From Nocardioides pantholopis (GTDB taxonomy: Bacteria > Actinomycetota > Actinomycetes > Propionibacteriales > Nocardioidaceae): a stretch of 64,000 bases of DNA. The stretch lies in contig NZ_CP033324.1 of NCBI RefSeq assembly GCF_003710085.1, positions 3,721,501 through 3,785,500 of the forward strand, read 5' to 3'. This document shows positions 8,041 to 61,120 of the stretch, piece after piece (position 1 is the first letter of the stretch; every line of letters begins with the position of its first letter). The translations under genes and the position numbers were made by a program. The notes beneath the pieces are model-generated. The model saw only the letters and a program-made list of their open reading frames with translations, had not been told where the DNA came from and made no database searches.

Positions 8041-9213
8041 ATGAGCATGACCGCCGGCTGCAGCTCCCCGGGCGCCGGACCACGGACGACGGCCCGGCGG
8101 CTGGTGCCTGCCCTCCTGGAGCTGGTCTCGGTCCTCGTCCTGTTCGGCGCCTACAACCTCGGCCGGCTGGTCGCGACCGGCCGGGTGGCCCCCGCCGACG
8201 ACAACGCCCGGGCCGTGCTCGACCTGCAGGCGGCCCTGTCCCTGCCCAACGAGGCATTCCTCCAGGCGCAGGCCCTCCAGGTGCACCACCTCGTCGGCCT
8301 GGCCGACCGCTACTACCTGCTGCACTTCCCGGTGACGATCGGCGTGCTGGTCTGGCTCTTCGTCCACGACCGCACCGGCTACCGCTGGGCCAAGCACGCG
8401 CTGGTGGCGGTCACCGGGGTCGCCATGGTCGTCCACATCGTGCTGCCGGTGACGCCGCCCCGGCTGCTCGCGGCCTCCGGCATGGTCGACACCGGTCAGC
8501 GCTCGGGGGCGAGCGTGTACGACGGCTCCCCGCTCTCCGGCCTGGCCAACGAGTACGCCGCGATGCCGAGCCTGCACGTCGGCTGGGCGCTGCTGCTGGC
8601 CATCGTCCTGGTGGTGCGCGGCTCCAGCCGGTGGCGGTGGGTCTGGCTGCTGCACCCGGTGCTGACGACCGCGACCGTCGTGGTCACCGCCAACCACTAC
8701 CTGCTCGACGCGATCGCCGGCGCCGCCCTGGTCGTGCTGTCACTGGTCTGGCTGCGTCCGTCCCGACGGGGGCGACCTCGCTCAACTCGCTCAGCCCGCC
8801 AACCGGCGGGCGGCACGACGCAGGTCCGCCCGCACGGCGTACGGCGCGACCCGGGCGAGGAGGAGCGCCACCAGCCGTCCGGGCCCGCTGGCCCGGACCG
8901 TCATCGAGGCCTCCACCACGCAGCCTCCGGGAGCCGGGGCGAACTCGAGGGTGAGGTCGGCACGGAACCGGCGCCAGGTGCCCTGCTCGGTCCAGCGGTG
9001 CGGGCGGTCCAGGACCGTGGTCCGCATCCGCGGTCGCAGGCCGAGGCCGGTCACGTCCACCCAGGTCTGGCCGACCCGCGGCCCGCCGTCGACCTCGGCC
9101 ACCCGGACCAGGCTGGACTGCCAGGCCGGCCGGTTCCGCGGCTCGACCAGGTAGTCGAAGGCCGCCTCCGGCGGGACCGGCAGGTGCAGCACCCTAGAAC
9201 CGTTCCCCGGTGA
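8041..9213 (+). CDS. PAP2-superfamily membrane protein; C-terminal extension doubtful
   Basis: The N-terminal ~240 residues (to about base 8760) form a membrane enzyme of the PAP2/Aur1-like group: hydrophobic segments, then MPSLHVGWALLL and NHYLLDAIAGAALV, which supply the two catalytic histidines and the aspartate. Such proteins transfer or remove phospho head groups of lipids. The frame has no stop until 9213, so it runs about 420 bases antisense through the SRPBCC gene. That part has arginine/glycine-rich, non-hydrophobic sequence and poor third-position GC, so it is probably not natural protein. A lost stop or an assembly error near 8760-8790 may explain it. Confidence 0.65.
   Translation: MSMTAGCSSPGAGPRTTARRLVPALLELVSVLVLFGAYNLGRLVATGRVAPADDNARAVLDLQAALSLPNEAFLQAQALQVHHLVGLADRYYLLHFPVTIGVLVWLFVHDRTGYRWAKHALVAVTGVAMVVHIVLPVTPPRLLAASGMVDTGQRSGASVYDGSPLSGLANEYAAMPSLHVGWALLLAIVLVVRGSSRWRWVWLLHPVLTTATVVVTANHYLLDAIAGAALVVLSLVWLRPSRRGRPRSTRSARQPAGGTTQVRPHGVRRDPGEEERHQPSGPAGPDRHRGLHHAASGSRGELEGEVGTEPAPGALLGPAVRAVQDRGPHPRSQAEAGHVHPGLADPRPAVDLGHPDQAGLPGRPVPRLDQVVEGRLRRDRQVQHPRTVPR
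8791..9192 (-). CDS. SRPBCC (START/polyketide cyclase-like) protein
   Basis: A 133-residue single-domain protein. It begins VLHLPVPPEAAFDYLVEPRNRPAWQSS, the start of the SRPBCC helix-grip fold, and has the G-x-x-W-x-x-V turn and the C-terminal long helix (LVALLLARVAPYAVRADLRRAARRL). These proteins bind hydrophobic ligands in a cavity; the ligand is unknown. The GTG start lies one base after the proper purC stop (9194-9196). Because purC is frameshifted here, the disturbed purC frame runs straight into this gene without a stop. Confidence 0.72.
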   Translation of the reverse strand: MLHLPVPPEAAFDYLVEPRNRPAWQSSLVRVAEVDGGPRVGQTWVDVTGLGLRPRMRTTVLDRPHRWTEQGTWRRFRADLTLEFAPAPGGCVVEASMTVRASGPGRLVALLLARVAPYAVRADLRRAARRLAG

Positions 9214-10089
9214 GCAGCTCGTAGGCCTCGACGTAGCGCGACCGGGTGCGCTCGACGACCTCGGGGGCAGCGGGGGCGGCGCCGCCCCCGAGCTGCGGTC
9301 CCAGCCGGACTCCGCGGAGGTCAGCCAGTTGCGCACGATCTGCTTGTCGTAGGAGGGCTGGGTGCGGCCCGGCCGCCACTGGTCGGCCGGCCAGAAGCGC
9401 GAGGAGTCCGGGGTGAGCACCTCGTCGGCGAGCACCATCACGCCGTCGGGGCGGGCGCCGAACTCGAGCTTGGTGTCGGCCAGCACGATCCCGCGCTCGC
9501 GGGCGATGCCCTCGGCCCGCTCGTAGACAGCCAGCGTGAGCTCGCGCAGCGCCGCCGCCGTGTCCTCGCCGACGCTGGCCGCGACGGCCGCGTAGGAGAC
9601 GTTCTCGTCGTGGTCGCCGACCGCGGCCTTGCTGGCCGGGGTGAAGATCGGCTCCGGCAGCCGGCTGCCGTCCTCCAGCCCCGCGGGCAGGTGGACGCCG
9701 CAGACCTCGCCGGTGGCGCGGTAGTCGGCGAGGCCGGAGCCGGTGAGGTAGCCGCGGGCCACGCACTCCACGGCGTACATCTCCAGGCGCTCGCAGATCA
9801 CCGCCCGGCCGCGCACCGCGTCGGGGACGTCGGTGGAGATCACGTGGTGCGGCACCAGGTCGTCGAGCCGGTCGAACCACCACAGCGACATCCGGGTCAG
9901 GATCTCGCCCTTGTCCGGGATCGTGGAGGACAGCACGAAGTCGTAGGCCGAGATCCGGTCGCTGGCCACCATCAGCAGCCGGCCGGCGTGCTCGCCGCCC
10001 TCGATCTCGTAGAGGTCGCGCACCTTCCCGGAGTGGAGGTGGCGGGCGCCCGGGATCGTCGGGGCGTCGGGGATGTTCAGGTCGACCAC
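9194..10089 (-). pseudogene. purC: SAICAR synthetase, with a one-base frameshift near its 3' end
   Basis: Phosphoribosylaminoimidazole-succinocarboxamide synthase, which joins CAIR and aspartate with ATP. The first ~273 codons are intact from the GTG at 10089: HSGKVRDLYE, DRISAYDFVL, VARGYLTGSGLADYR, DTKLEFG and DEVLTPDSSRFW. In the run of five G at 9263-9267 one base is missing: the frame leaves PurC after WDRSSGAAPPPLP, while the expected end EVVERTRSRYVEAYELLTGERF is found in the next frame with its stop at 9194. One added base would give a normal 298-residue enzyme. PurC is normally essential without added purine, so an assembly error is likely. As written, the frame continues to 8791 as a 432-residue PurC-SRPBCC fusion. 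Confidence 0.85.
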
Positions 10090-56446: not shown

Positions 56447-56659
56447 CTACGCCGCTGCCACGCGATGGTAGTGGTGTGCCTTGACATGGAAGCCAGTACG
56501 ACGCCACGGGTGCGGCAGCAGGATCTGCTTGAACAGCGGGTACGCGACGTCGAGGTAGTCGTAAACGCCGCCGCTGTGGAACGGGACCCGCATGGTGCGA
56601 GTGTCGGCGTCATACCCGACAGCGCTCAGGTTGTTTGAGACAATTGGTTGCATCCTCAC
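56447..56659 (-). CDS. KTSC-domain protein
   Basis: A 70-residue protein matching the KTSC domain: MQPIVSNNLSAVGYDADTRTMRVPFHSGGVYDYLDVAYPLFKQILL ... HVKAHHYHRV. The family is named for its lysyl-tRNA synthetase C-terminal relation and is found in phage, plasmid and genomic-island proteins; function unknown. GTG 56659 is preceded by AGGAGG at eight bases; ATG 56653 is the alternative. Confidence 0.75.
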   Translation of the reverse strand: MRMQPIVSNNLSAVGYDADTRTMRVPFHSGGVYDYLDVAYPLFKQILLPHPWRRTGFHVKAHHYHRVAAA

Positions 56660-56841: not shown

Positions 56842-56997
56842 TCACTTCTCGTTGCGGACGCCCTTGTGCTGGTTCGAGCTGCCGTTCATGATGCGACCCG
56901 TTGCGGCGTCTCGCTTGAACCAGGTCTTGCCGACCTTGAACTCGCTGCGACTCTTCACCGCGCCGACGCGGTGCCCGCGCCCCGTGTTCTTCGCCAT
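56842..56997 (-). CDS. Small basic protein, 51 aa
   Basis: A 51-residue, lysine/arginine-rich protein: MAKNTGRGHRVGAVKSRSEFKVGKTWFKRDAATGRIMNGSS... The pattern M-A-K-N-T-G-x-G ... V-G-A-V-K-x-R-S ... W-x-K-R-D-x-x-T-G-R recurs in small actinobacterial and phage-linked proteins of unknown function; it could bind nucleic acid. ATG 56997 follows GAGGAGGTGG, a strong ribosome site. Confidence 0.6.
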   Translation of the reverse strand: MAKNTGRGHRVGAVKSRSEFKVGKTWFKRDAATGRIMNGSSNQHKGVRNEK

Positions 56998-57078
56998 CCG
57001 TTCCACCTCCTCCCCGAGAGCCACCGACCGAGGTCTCGATGTCCTCTCACCTAGTAGTCGAGGCAGGTAGCCGGATGT

Positions 57079-58098
57079 TTAGCGGCACTCCTCGCAGCGA
57101 CCGTCCTCGAGGAGATGCGGGAGGTACTTCATGCCGCACCCGCCCGCGCACAGGGCCTCCCGCGACGCGCGACGTCCGCATCGGCACTTTCCGCACGTGG
57201 GGCAGTACGGTTCCCCGCAGTCCACGCACGGCCACGCACGAACAGTTCGCTCGACCCCGCAACACCGAAAGGTCCCCTCAGGTCGTTGGTCGAAATCGCG
57301 GCTTACCTGAGGGTGGAACACGTCAACGCCCCACAGGTCATCGTCGACCAGAACCGCAACGGTGCGGCGGTCCCCCGCATACGCATCGATGTAAAAGTCG
57401 GCGCGGCTTCCCCACGATGTCGCCCAGAACGAACGGCGGGTGAACGTCGCGCCGGAGGTCAGCCCACCCAGCGGGTGCGCAGCCGGCAGTGTCTGCCTCG
57501 GCCACGGGTGCACCGTCGGCCACCCGTGCTCAGGGTCAGGGTGAACGCTCGCGTACGTGACCACGTTCGTCGCCTGGTCAAGAACGATGACGGCGCCGAG
57601 CGTCGGAAGCCGGCCCGCTAGCGCAATGGCGCACGCCGGGACGCTCGCATTCGTGGCTTGGTACAGCTCAGCCACGTGACGTGCTCGCACCGGGCCGGCG
57701 CCGATGATGCGCGTCACTATTTCATCGGGGAACAGGAGTCGGGACGCGAGCCGGTCACACAGCGTCTCGAGCGCAACCGCGGCATCGGGCTGGTCAGCCA
57801 ACCAGTCGATAATGTCATCGATGTCGGCCACCAGAGAGTGGCCGAGTTCGTGCGCCAGCGTGAAGTTCTCTCGCCGGTTCCCGGTGGCCGCGTAAAGGAT
57901 GACGCCGTCCTTCAGGAACGACACCCCATCGCAAGTGCCGCCGTCGTCGCGCTGCTCGGTGAGATGGTCGGCGGCACGCACCTTCAACCCGAACTCCACG
58001 TTCAGGGTCCGGAGCGGGTCAGCGGCAAAGCTCGCCTGAATCGGCTCGTCGACTTCGCCCAAAGCCCGGTCGACACAGTCCTCCATGGTCTCTAACAC
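57079..58098 (-). CDS. ImmA/IrrE-family metallopeptidase with cysteine-rich tail
   Basis: A 339-residue protein. Residues ~20-130 carry the ImmA/IrrE protease: zinc motif H83-E-x-x-H87 (LAHELGHSL) and third ligand glutamate E111 in the following helix (ALETLCDRLASRLLFP), the IrrE pattern. A middle region of ~130 residues has FYIDAYAGDRRTVAVLVDDDLWGVDVFH. The last ~60 residues have 14 cysteines in C-x-x-C pairs (e.g. CVDCGEPYCPTCGKCRCG, CGMKYLPHLLEDGRCEEC), suggesting zinc ribbons. Start is GTG 58098 or ATG 58086. Downstream of the HTH gene by nine bases: probably cuts that regulator. Confidence 0.82.
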   Translation of the reverse strand: MLETMEDCVDRALGEVDEPIQASFAADPLRTLNVEFGLKVRAADHLTEQRDDGGTCDGVSFLKDGVILYAATGNRRENFTLAHELGHSLVADIDDIIDWLADQPDAAVALETLCDRLASRLLFPDEIVTRIIGAGPVRARHVAELYQATNASVPACAIALAGRLPTLGAVIVLDQATNVVTYASVHPDPEHGWPTVHPWPRQTLPAAHPLGGLTSGATFTRRSFWATSWGSRADFYIDAYAGDRRTVAVLVDDDLWGVDVFHPQVSRDFDQRPEGTFRCCGVERTVRAWPCVDCGEPYCPTCGKCRCGRRASREALCAGGCGMKYLPHLLEDGRCEECR

Positions 58099-58107
58099 GA
58101 ATGATCC

Positions 58108-58803
58108 CTAGTCGGACTCAAGCGCATCGACAAGACCCTCAACGGCCGACAACATCTGCTCGGCGTTGGGCTGGTCGCCGCGATGAACTGTGGCCAGCAT
58201 CCGTGCGTGCAGTGCCGACTCGGCCATCTTCTGGGTCATGTTCTGAAGAGCTGCGAACCGCTCGGCCAGACCTCGGAACCGAACTGTTCCGGCGACCTCG
58301 TTCGCAACGTCAGCTGCCACGACTTCCGCGCCAGCCCCAGACTTCACAGCCCCACGTGCAGGAGCCGTGAGGCGGTCAGCGTCCGTGTGCAGGACGTCCG
58401 CGACAGCGCGCACCAAAGCCGGCGGCACAACCGCGGCCCCACGCGTCTCCCATCCGAGCACGTCGACAGCACTCACCGACCAACCGCGACGGGTCAGGCG
58501 GTCAGCCAAAACCGACGCCTTCACCCCGGCACCCGACCGGACACGCTTCAGCGCAGCCGGGTCCAGCTGATACCCAGCATCAGGCACGAGACCCAGCAGC
58601 GCAGCTACCGGGTCGTCCTCCAAAGCCGGCGCCCCATGGGCGTCCTCCCACACCAGGTCGGCGACATTCAGCAGACGACGCGCGGCAGCCTGCTCAGCTT
58701 CAGGCAGCGTGCTCAACAGACTTTCACGCTCCGCACCTGGAGGCAGCTCCAAGAGCCGCGCCATGCGACCGCTGTCGTCACCGTGCTGCTCTTCATGACT
58801 CAC
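58108..58803 (-). CDS. HTH regulator (XRE-like), anti-sigma or repressor partner
   Basis: A 231-residue protein. Residues ~12-75 are helical and acidic (LLELPPGAERESLLSTLPEAEQAAARRLLNVADLVWEDAHGAPALEDDPVAALLGLVPD). Residues ~81-146 form an XRE-type HTH (DPAALKRVRSGAGVKASVLADRLTRRGWSVSAVDVLGWETRGAAVVPPALVRAVADVLHTD). The rest is helical. GTG overlaps the sigma factor stop by four bases. By position it may bind the sigma factor or DNA and be removed by the protease; the binding partner is not shown. Confidence 0.65.
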   Translation of the reverse strand: MSHEEQHGDDSGRMARLLELPPGAERESLLSTLPEAEQAAARRLLNVADLVWEDAHGAPALEDDPVAALLGLVPDAGYQLDPAALKRVRSGAGVKASVLADRLTRRGWSVSAVDVLGWETRGAAVVPPALVRAVADVLHTDADRLTAPARGAVKSGAGAEVVAADVANEVAGTVRFRGLAERFAALQNMTQKMAESALHARMLATVHRGDQPNAEQMLSAVEGLVDALESD

Positions 58804-59396
58804 AAACTCACCCCCTTCGCTTCCAATATTGTCGCCAACTTCTTGTACGCGGTCGTCTTCAACTGACTGATACGACCAGGCGTCAACCCAAGCTCCCGCG
58901 CAATCTGCGCTTGGCTCTGTTCGCCGTAGTACATCCGGCGAACGACCGCACGCTGGTCATCGGGAAGTTCGCTGATAGCCGCACGAGCCGCAGCGACCTT
59001 GAGCTCACGCTCCTCGACGGCGACGAACTCGCCCTCCACGTCAACGTCAGCCGCGACAGCGGGCCGCTCCGAGAGCTCAATGACATCCGGACCGGCATAC
59101 CTGGTCTCCCCAAGCTTCCCCACGTCGATAGCGCGACGTTTCACCGTCGACACCAACAACGCGACCCAACTCGACACCTGTGCCGGCGGGTGCCGCCACA
59201 CCGACAGAACCGCCTCCTGCACTACGTCCGGCGCATGCGACTCCAGGCCAAAGGGACGCAACGCCGCCGCGGCAACTCGATGCAGCATGTCCCGGTTCTC
59301 GGCGTAGGCCACCTCAAAGTCGGGAACGCCACCCGACTCGGGTCGCTCGCCTGGCTCTTCGTCCCCGTCACCGCTACTGGTCCCGCCTGAGCTCAT
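58800..59396 (-). CDS. Sigma-70-family RNA polymerase sigma factor (short, ECF-like)
   Basis: A 198-residue sigma factor. Residues 1-25 are acidic and disordered. Region 2 spans ~27-92 (LHRVAAAALRPFGLESHAPDVVQEAVLSVWRHPPAQVSSWVALLVSTVKRRAID), including the D-V-V-Q-E-A polymerase contact. Region 4 spans ~135-190 (AAISELPDDQRAVVRRMYYGEQSQAQIARELGLTPGRISQLKTTAYKKL). Two-domain layout as in ECF factors. ATG 59396 follows GAGGTGA. First gene of an operon with the HTH protein and protease; a promoter is seen at 59562-59589. Confidence 0.85.
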   Translation of the reverse strand: MSSGGTSSGDGDEEPGERPESGGVPDFEVAYAENRDMLHRVAAAALRPFGLESHAPDVVQEAVLSVWRHPPAQVSSWVALLVSTVKRRAIDVGKLGETRYAGPDVIELSERPAVAADVDVEGEFVAVEERELKVAAARAAISELPDDQRAVVRRMYYGEQSQAQIARELGLTPGRISQLKTTAYKKLATILEAKGVSL

Positions 59397-59561
59397 CGCA
59401 CCGTCACCTCGGATTAGGTCCGCAACCGCCGCACACACCCACGTCGCAAAGGGCGCATACCGAGCAGTCGACGCAGCCCACTCGACGTTTAGCCGACACC
59501 CTCGAATTCTCCGGCAACCCCGGGTCGCTAGCCGTAAGACGCGCGCAAATTCGGGTGTAGG

Positions 59562-59720: not shown

Positions 59721-60989
59721 CTAACACCGTCGGTGGAAGGCGATCTTCCCGCCCGACAGCACCCTGGTCTCGTACGCAGGGTCGTGGGCGCGGGCGTGGT
59801 GGCGGGGGCAGAGCAGGCGGCCGTTGGTCAGGCTGGTCTCGCCGCCGAGGTGCCAGGGGATGACGTGGTGGCCGTGGCACAGGCCGGGTGGCCAGTCGCA
59901 TCCTTCGGCGGTGCAGCCGCCGTCACGTAGGCCCATCGCGGTCCGCTGGGCCTTGGTGAACAGCCGGCGGGTGCGGCCCACGTCGAGGGGCTGGCCGGCG
60001 CCGTCGAGGACGGCGGGGATGATCCCGGCCTCGCACGCCAGCCGCCTCGCCTCGGAGGCGGAGATGGTCTCGCCGGTGGCCAGCTGCGCGGCCCGGAGTC
60101 CGCCGACCAGCGACTCCATCTCCATCGTGACCACGATCGTGGCCGCGACGCCGCCGGCGTCGGGGAGCCGATCGACCGGGTAGCGCTCCACGTACTCGCA
60201 GAACGCCTGACCCATCCGCTCCGGACCCGGCCGCCGCTCACCGGCCCCAGTTCCGGCGCCGTTCACGGCGTGCTGGTGCTTGGGGGCGGCGATCGCCAGC
60301 AGCGCGGTGCGGAGCATTGCCGCGTGGTGGGTCGGGATCGTGAACCGGCCATAAGTCTTGCCGTGTCCGTCGTCGGACATCGTGAGCCGGGCGGCGGCGC
60401 GGGCGGCGGCCTCCTCCCGCTCCAGTCGGGCGGCCTCCACTGCGTCGGCGTGCTCGGGGGCGATGACCTCGATCAGCCGCTTGCCCAGTCTGCGCAGCGC
60501 GATGGCGTCGTGGTGGCGGGCCTGGCCGAGGAGGAACTCCTCGGCCCGCACCCGGGCGTCCTCGTCGACGTACTCCGCGGGAAGGTCCTCGACCGCGTCC
60601 ACGATCACCTGGGCCTGGTCCAGGTTGACCCGGCCCGCGGCGAGGGCATCCCGGACCGGGTCGTGGCGCGGCGTGTCCAAGGCCCGGGCCAGCCGCATCA
60701 ACCGGTGTGCCTCCGGGCGGGTCAACCGTGCCTCGTGGGCCCACCAGTTCGCCGTACTCGTCGCGCCCACAGCGGCGCCGGTCTCGACGGTGTGGGCCTG
60801 GGCCGCGACCCGGAGCCGCAGCTCGTGGAGTCGCGCGATCTCGGACGTCAGATCCAGCAGCGCGGCCCCCGCCTCGGCCGCGTCCAGCGACCACACCGGA
60901 GCCTCGGCCACCCCGTCCAACGCCTCCTGCACGTACGCCACCGCCCGGGCCACCGGATGCCCAGATCGAGGTGCGAACGCTGCCGTCAT
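59721..60989 (-). CDS. HNH endonuclease with DUF222 domain
   Basis: A 422-residue protein. The N-terminal ~300 residues match DUF222 (LHELRLRVAAQAHTVETG ... WWAHEARLTRPEAHRLMRLARALD ... VNLDQAQVIVDAVEDLP). The C-terminus carries the HNH nuclease: CTAEGCDWPPGLCHGHHVIPWHLGGETSLTNGRLLCPRHHARAHD. Many Actinobacteria hold several near-identical copies. The function is unknown (mobile-element or DNA-repair like). ATG 60989 chosen. Confidence 0.85.
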   Translation of the reverse strand: MTAAFAPRSGHPVARAVAYVQEALDGVAEAPVWSLDAAEAGAALLDLTSEIARLHELRLRVAAQAHTVETGAAVGATSTANWWAHEARLTRPEAHRLMRLARALDTPRHDPVRDALAAGRVNLDQAQVIVDAVEDLPAEYVDEDARVRAEEFLLGQARHHDAIALRRLGKRLIEVIAPEHADAVEAARLEREEAAARAAARLTMSDDGHGKTYGRFTIPTHHAAMLRTALLAIAAPKHQHAVNGAGTGAGERRPGPERMGQAFCEYVERYPVDRLPDAGGVAATIVVTMEMESLVGGLRAAQLATGETISASEARRLACEAGIIPAVLDGAGQPLDVGRTRRLFTKAQRTAMGLRDGGCTAEGCDWPPGLCHGHHVIPWHLGGETSLTNGRLLCPRHHARAHDPAYETRVLSGGKIAFHRRC

Positions 60990-61120
60990 GTGACCTACTA
61001 CACCACCGACCACCGACAGTTCTGATCGGCTGTTCCCCCAGGTCAGACCCCCTGTGGACAACTGCCGAACCGGGCCGAGACAGCGACGCTTGCCCCCCGC
61101 CTCCCGGGGTACGGGGAGCC

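Follow-up and report, generated by a model that had tools for sequence, protein, structure and literature searches.

A sigma factor-HTH-protease gene triad in Nocardioides

We investigated three adjacent genes in a stretch of 64,000 nucleotides (hereafter the window) from the 4.04 Mb, single-contig genome of Nocardioides pantholopis (NCBI RefSeq assembly GCF_003710085.1, contig NZ_CP033324.1, positions 3,721,501 to 3,785,500). All three lie on the reverse strand and code, in order, for a sigma factor (window positions 58800..59396, 198 residues), a helix-turn-helix (HTH) protein (58108..58803, 231 residues) and an ImmA/IrrE (M78) metalloprotease (57079..58098, 339 residues). An earlier sequence-only reading had described them as a tightly packed operon in an island of lower GC, and its open reading frames and strands, the 4-base overlap of the sigma and HTH genes (58800-58803) and the 9-base gap between the HTH and immA genes (58099-58107) were all borne out. 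The island is likewise real: the two lowest-GC kilobases of the 64 in the window coincide with the triad (58001-59000, GC 0.642; 57001-58000, GC 0.665). Absent from that reading were two genes downstream of the triad (56842-56997 and 56447-56659) and two promoter-like sites (57054-57082 and 59464-59492), described below.

The sigma factor is an ECF (extracytoplasmic function)-like member of the sigma-70 family. It is recovered above cut-off by the NCBIfam sigma70-ECF profile across regions 2 and 4 (3.1e-16) and matches Pfam Sigma70_r4 (2.6e-12) and, under the cut-off, Sigma70_r2 (6e-4), with no region 3 match among its Pfam results; a homologue occupies the same place in related loci. The HTH protein is a sub-threshold match to Pfam HTH_31 (6e-4) and was characterized mainly through its AlphaFold2 model and a 30-row alignment. 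The protease lies just over the cut-off of Pfam Peptidase_M78 (8.9e-5), with stronger recognition by the PADLOC capP profile (9.2e-15), and couples the peptidase to a GAF-like domain and a C-terminal tail with 12 cysteines.

Conservation and spread of the triad

Using a profile built from four protease sequences, we recovered 29 loci from the GTDB collection. This amounts to the search for conserved triads that the sequence-only reading had called for: tblastn finds the order sigma-HTH-protease in 28 of the 29, and the unit is also present on three plasmids. In the remaining locus (L058, from a Thermoleophilaceae metagenome-assembled genome) profiles recover both partners, the two genes ahead of the protease coding for a sigma region 2 protein (1.2e-4, under the Pfam cut-off) and for a homologue of the HTH protein over nearly its whole length (hhalign probability 96.5%). 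In the measured loci the triad genes can overlap or sit at most 13 bases apart, figures that are upper bounds on tightness since the script took the start codon nearest the preceding stop.

Across 28 loci the pairwise distances of the three proteins are strongly correlated (sigma-HTH 0.78, sigma-ImmA 0.79, HTH-ImmA 0.91), with the largest value among 2000 permutations being 0.31; L058 and the two loci with split genes, L026 and L027, were left out of this comparison. Hence, the three genes travel together, with the HTH protein and the protease forming the tightest pair. The triad is sparse within its range: 6 of 195 relatives have the HTH protein, and a class-wide sample of 393 genomes yielded the protease (E <= 1e-40) in six. 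An origin by chance or artefact was rejected, as the triad recurs from Nocardioides to Arthrobacter, Gordonia, Mycolicibacterium and the Thermoleophilaceae genome. A prophage repressor as the principal explanation was also rejected: the protease had no match in the phage collection, and none of the 177 stretches matched in one scan of viral contigs was confirmed.

Paired promoter-like sites

A bipartite sequence of the form CTAAC-N16-TCGACTAC is common to the loci, both before the sigma gene and after immA. In the window, exact motif matches define a proposed autoregulatory promoter upstream of the sigma gene (59464..59492, reverse strand; CTAAA-N16-TCGACTGC) and a proposed cargo promoter that overlaps the immA stop codon (57054..57082, reverse strand; CTAAA-N16-TCGACTAC). 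We searched both strands of 31 non-redundant loci (454 kb) with the pattern CTAAM-N16-TCGACTRC, allowing at most one mismatch. The near-identical loci L036, L040, L042 and L056 are excluded from the counts, and L025, L028 and L029, duplicates of L035, L051 and L052, are counted only once. Of the 57 matches, 26 lie before the sigma gene, 27 at the immA end, two before a divergent gene for the small protein PDC-S38 (L048 and L049, where the promoter orientation turns along with that gene) and two elsewhere. One of the latter is the cargo promoter of L051, 120 bases past immA, such that the expected sites take 56 of the 57 matches (55 in the scripted site windows and that of L051 by hand). The reversed pattern gave three matches in the same 454 kb.

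At the genome scale, the exact pattern occurs in the window's genome only at the two cassette sites, with two one-mismatch matches elsewhere. Among the 195 relatives it is present in 6 of 6 carriers, all of them among the loci used to define it, and in 2 of 189 non-carriers. Class-wide it is found in 5 of 6 carriers and in 12 of 387 other genomes; five of the six carriers had no part in the motif definition, and four of these have it. Three class-wide carriers with identities unlike any of the loci compared by tblastn (G428, G471 and G546) have the full cassette and both promoters, and a fourth (G368), whose locus begins inside immA, retains the second promoter.

The two sites also agree with each other within a locus. 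In the window, L051, L052 and L059, each of the two sites has the -35 variant CTAAA; L054 and L055 carry CTTAC in both positions, and L057 has a 15-base spacer in each copy (TTAAC-N15). Over 30 loci, L058 being left out, the within-locus similarity of the promoter pair is 13.47 against 12.89 when shuffled, a level reached by 0 of 20000 shuffles, with the caveat that the shuffle ignores relatedness, which inflates the result, L051/L052 and L054/L055 being sister pairs. Most tellingly, the helix of sigma region 4.2 follows the -35 type: it reads GR in all four CTAAA loci as opposed to only two CTAAC loci (L053 and L061), RPRVNQ in both CTTAC loci and RVRVSQ in L057. Of all the observations, this argues most strongly for the sigma factor reading both promoters, which we consider very probable. 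As a -35/-10 motif of its own precedes the sigma gene, we propose that the factor is autoregulatory.

Defence genes as swappable cargo

The most conserved protein of the cassette is PDC-S38 (also phrog_12550), which in the window is a 51-residue protein encoded by the first gene of the cargo operon (56842..56997, reverse strand; PADLOC PDC-S38 9.7e-13, phrog_12550 1.3e-8). It adjoins the triad in 20 of the 29 genome loci and on all three plasmids with 73-90% identity, following immA in 18 loci and being transcribed divergently to the sigma gene in the other two (L048 and L049). It is usually the first gene behind the second promoter, with the variable genes coming after it. PDC-S38 could be a universal part of the cassette as opposed to cargo.

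Genes of defence families are found beside the triad in 19 of the 31 non-redundant loci, the assignments being based on representatives that were searched and on the BLAST clusters to which these belong. These include CBASS cyclases in six loci, with patatin, Cap4/SAVED-HNH or Cap15 as effectors where seen, and a ThiF/E1 protein in eight loci, in seven of which it is accompanied by a small, possibly ubiquitin-like protein (a weak Multi_ubiq match, 0.03). Multiubiquitin with DUF6791-ThiF occurs in three loci, a Bil system in one (BilC 3e-53, BilD 3.5e-115) and a HerA ATPase in one; L032 and L061 show weaker candidate defence matches. The cassettes of L054 and L055 are 83% (sigma), 85% (HTH) and 90% (ImmA) identical and yet carry unrelated cargo: the former is followed by CBASS and the latter by a multiubiquitin/E1 system, the E1 protein of which is similar (38%) to its counterparts in L051 and L052, two distant cassettes. 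This cargo swap indicates that the controller is modular. In the window copy, the downstream cargo is limited to PDC-S38 and a KTSC-domain protein, for which reason this copy may be minimal or have lost its effector.

The protease and the HTH protein

The AlphaFold2 model of the protease (predicted local distance difference test, pLDDT, 88.9) aligns with the complex of PprI and single-stranded DNA (ssDNA; 8sln) over both the peptidase and GAF-like domains (Z 22.3, root-mean-square deviation (rmsd) 3.0, 233 residues aligned) and less closely with CapP (7t5t; Z 14.3, rmsd 5.1, 225 aligned). In the alignments of the protease, made without L026 and L027, the catalytic residues singled out by the sequence-only reading, His83, Glu84 and His87, form an HExxH motif that is invariant in all 29 aligned relatives, as is E111. 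Ten of the 12 tail cysteines are likewise invariant in the 29 rows, and the remaining two are present in 27 and 28.

The structure predictions left out the plasmid rows L060-L062 and, in the alignment for the HTH protein, also L026 and L027. The model of the HTH protein (pLDDT 87.7) shows an N-terminal helical domain (residues ~1-76), an XRE-type HTH (77-150) and C-terminal helices (150-231); the first of these corresponds to the extra helical domain that had been recognized in the sequence alone. The XRE domain matches the CapH N-domain closely (7t5u; Z 9.7, rmsd 1.5, 63 aligned) and the DNA-binding domain of ImmR as well (7t8i; Z 9.3), and DdrO aligns loosely along the length of the protein (Z 8.9, rmsd 8.6, 123 residues). 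In the 30-row alignment, L61, D64, A67, L70 and G71 are invariant ahead of the XRE domain; other invariant residues lie within it (A100, L103, W108, P128 and A129) and after it (R208, G209 and Q216).

In two of the six copies from the window's genome and its relatives the protease is broken, with the sigma and HTH genes staying open. In locus L027 (genome G073) an IS3-family-like transposase pair sits within immA (8388-9604 of that locus), and PDC-S38, KTSC and a HerA-like ATPase are found downstream. In L026 (G142) a frameshift, which could be a sequencing error, splits immA (8525-9563 of that locus), with the sigma and HTH genes and both promoters being present. Loss of the protease alone fits a fail-safe system.

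Proposed mechanism and alternative explanations

Taken together, these observations suggest that the triad acts as a mobile and self-contained unit controlling the transcription of anti-phage defence operons, its sigma factor being freed by the protease; we assign this reading a probability of roughly 0.7. As judged from comparative sequence analysis, its conserved unit, frequent defence cargo and paired promoter-like sites are well supported. In the resting state the HTH protein would keep the sigma factor inactive, most likely through binding it. A signal of DNA damage or phage, perhaps ssDNA, would activate the IrrE/CapP-type protease, which would then cut the HTH protein and free the sigma factor. 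The freed factor would fire the promoter before its own gene, resulting in positive feedback, as well as the one at the immA end, leading to expression of PDC-S38 and the attached cargo. This fits the idea put forward in the sequence-only reading, in which the HTH protein could hold the sigma factor and the protease could release it, with both binding and cleavage being predictions; the link to defence operons and the two promoter copies had escaped that reading. The individual steps differ in strength: the HTH protein is probably the substrate of the protease; its restraining the sigma factor through direct contact is an evenly balanced proposition, with repression through DNA binding being the more doubtful of the two; and ssDNA or DNA damage as the signal is a tentative proposal, a little short of even.

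Several observations weigh against this reading. No recognized defence cargo is found in 10 of the 31 loci, including the window. No motif was recognized in L058 or in the divergent carrier G237, and a search at spacing 16 did not recover the sigma-side promoter of L044. Among genomes lacking the cassette, the reversed pattern is no rarer than the forward one (4 of 195 relatives; 33 of 393 class-wide, none of them a carrier), and the relatedness that inflates the promoter-pair comparison counts in the same direction, as does the conserved recognition helix of the HTH protein, which suits DNA binding too. The residues implicated in sensing are a mixed case. In the available part of the PprI study, R85, F88, R207 and R267 contact ssDNA (PMC10904395). 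With a numbering offset of two inferred from the HExxH motif, R85 and F88 correspond to R76 and F79 of the protease, both kept in 29 of 29; R267 corresponds to R245, a position with R or K in 25 of 29, and R207 falls on the acidic D188 in the sequence alignment. ssDNA sensing by the protease is thus only partly supported, the residue mapping being in part negative. Further, counterparts of R76 and F79 are common across M78 proteases generally.

The alternative that survives best is that the HTH protein is an ordinary CapH/DdrO-like repressor sitting at the promoters and removed by the protease, with the sigma factor being an activator that is blocked without contacting it. The matches of the XRE domain to CapH and DdrO, the near-invariance of three residues of the third HTH helix (D114, V115 and W118) and the CapH+CapP precedent, as far as the available text describes it (PMC13373217), all favour such a repressor. 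Against it, information content across the loci revealed no strongly conserved element common to the two promoters besides the -35/-10 blocks, in a search that left out L058 and in which the L051 cargo promoter fell outside the site windows and the L044 sigma promoter was unmatched. Five of the invariant residues also precede the XRE domain, though others lie in and after it. We consider this alternative unlikely, if still a serious contender.

A selfish or toxin-antitoxin-like module, with the HTH protein as antitoxin, the protease as its partner and a stray sigma factor, might instead be hitch-hiking in defence islands. The patchy and mobile distribution of the triad (6 of 195 relatives for the HTH protein, three plasmids and clustered relaxase-like genes) and the copies without recognized defence cargo are what such a module would show. 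However, the second promoter is directed at the downstream operon and changes orientation where PDC-S38 does, and the cargo, varied as it is, is often defence-related, which together make hitch-hiking improbable. Poorest of all fares the possibility that the bipartite motif serves the HTH protein as an operator and is not a sigma promoter: it is conserved together with the HTH recognition helix, but its two unlike blocks are non-palindromic and mostly 16 bases apart (15 at both L057 sites), its -35 variants track sigma region 4.2 and it points toward transcription at both sites.

Comparison with known controllers

Like the triad, ImmR-ImmA of ICEBs1 combines an HTH protein with an ImmA protease in a mobile element; unlike the triad, it controls the transfer of that element rather than a defence operon and is not known to include a sigma factor. 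The PprI/IrrE-DdrO system of Deinococcus shares with the triad a DdrO-like HTH protein and offers the closest structure for the protease, and we know of no sigma factor in its core. According to the part of the account available, it controls a DNA-damage response (PMC10904395), in contrast to the local, mobile and often defence-linked cassette described here.

A 2026 report presents, in its accessible portion, CapW/BrxR, CapH+CapP and, as a third, CapK+CapS as local controllers of immune operons activated by DNA damage, and that portion does not mention a sigma factor as part of any of them (PMC13373217). CapH+CapP comes closest, in that an IrrE-fold protease and an adjoining XRE HTH protein lie upstream of varied immune operons (PMC13373217, same portion); the triad lies beside defence genes in 19 of 31 loci, the window copy not being among them. 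It is, however, a two-gene system without its own sigma factor, whereas the triad operon begins with a sigma gene that has a promoter pair of its own and precedes the HTH gene (by tblastn in 28 of 29 loci and by Pfam in the 29th). Moreover, the triad HTH protein has the extra N-terminal helical domain, and its protease carries the 12-cysteine tail and is structurally closer to PprI than to CapP. CapK+CapS and CapW/BrxR are likewise small, DNA-damage-responsive controllers upstream of immune operons but comprise a kinase-repressor pair and an ssDNA-binding repressor, respectively, with neither a sigma factor nor a protease described for them in the same accessible text (PMC13373217). Type III CRISPR CalpL/CalpT/CalpS does unite a protease, an anti-sigma factor and an ECF sigma factor in one defence module; as described in the available part of the source, CalpL is a Lon/SAVED protease activated by cA4 (cyclic tetra-adenylate), with CalpT as the anti-sigma factor (PMC11417357). 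In the triad, the protease is instead an M78 enzyme with the IrrE fold, the HTH protein is of XRE type and the cargo is diverse. In the part available, a 2021 survey also places ECF sigma genes near other conflict systems.

Among the matches listed, we recognized no description of a sigma-HTH-ImmA controller in the open-access literature, a scope outside which most subscription papers lie. The sequence-only reading knew of no described system with this gene order; the logic, however, has precedents in CapH+CapP, PprI-DdrO and CalpL/T/S. To a CapH+CapP-like logic the triad adds a dedicated sigma factor and promoter pair. Whether this defines a new family of immune controllers, in which an IrrE-type protease would destroy an XRE-fold anti-sigma factor and the freed sigma factor would amplify itself and switch on a swappable defence operon behind a standard promoter, is a proposal for and against which we see equal weight. 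How toxic defence operons stay off and are then switched on is an open question; if true, positive feedback would make a sigma-based controller behave as a switch, going beyond simple derepression. The regularity of the promoters could help in discovering further defence genes, and the small size of the triad would allow it to be rebuilt in a laboratory strain.

Other features of the cassettes and their surroundings

The 5' leader of the PDC-S38 transcript contains a candidate hairpin (57016..57048 in the window, reverse strand) detected by covariation. Over all 22 leaders, 80% of the cells are paired, with changes on both sides in 14 cells, a level reached by 0 of 500 shuffles; versions slid along the alignment give 1-11. 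Single leaders are mostly unremarkable, the stem of the window being reached by 77 of 200 shuffles.

The last gene of the window's cassette encodes the KTSC-domain protein (56447..56659, reverse strand; Pfam KTSC 7.5e-11), with a 61% identical homologue at the same place in L027. A gene for a DUF222-HNH endonuclease-like protein (59721-61061 in the window) flanks the island, and the glycerate kinase gene neighbouring the cassette is present in relatives.

The HTH-ImmA pairs on the plasmids of Sinomonas (H7) and Streptomyces (H4), which have no annotated sigma gene beside them, were excluded from the family; their HTH proteins compare unconvincingly with that of the cassette (hhalign probability 3.7% and 35.7%, respectively). 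On the Sinomonas plasmid pSA01 (L063, 4055-7036) such a distant pair, with no sigma factor annotated next to it, immediately precedes a nucleotidyltransferase gene and is possibly a CapH+CapP-like controller. A MobF-type relaxase/helicase (L039, 3022-6576) represents a cluster (c0) whose members, this one being the one tested, occur in ten of the loci in the full set; their presence near the cassettes suggests spread by conjugative or mobilisable elements. On the Nocardioides plasmid pCHL (L060), an annotated erm gene, accompanied by transposase genes, is located within a few kb of a cassette with E1-type cargo.

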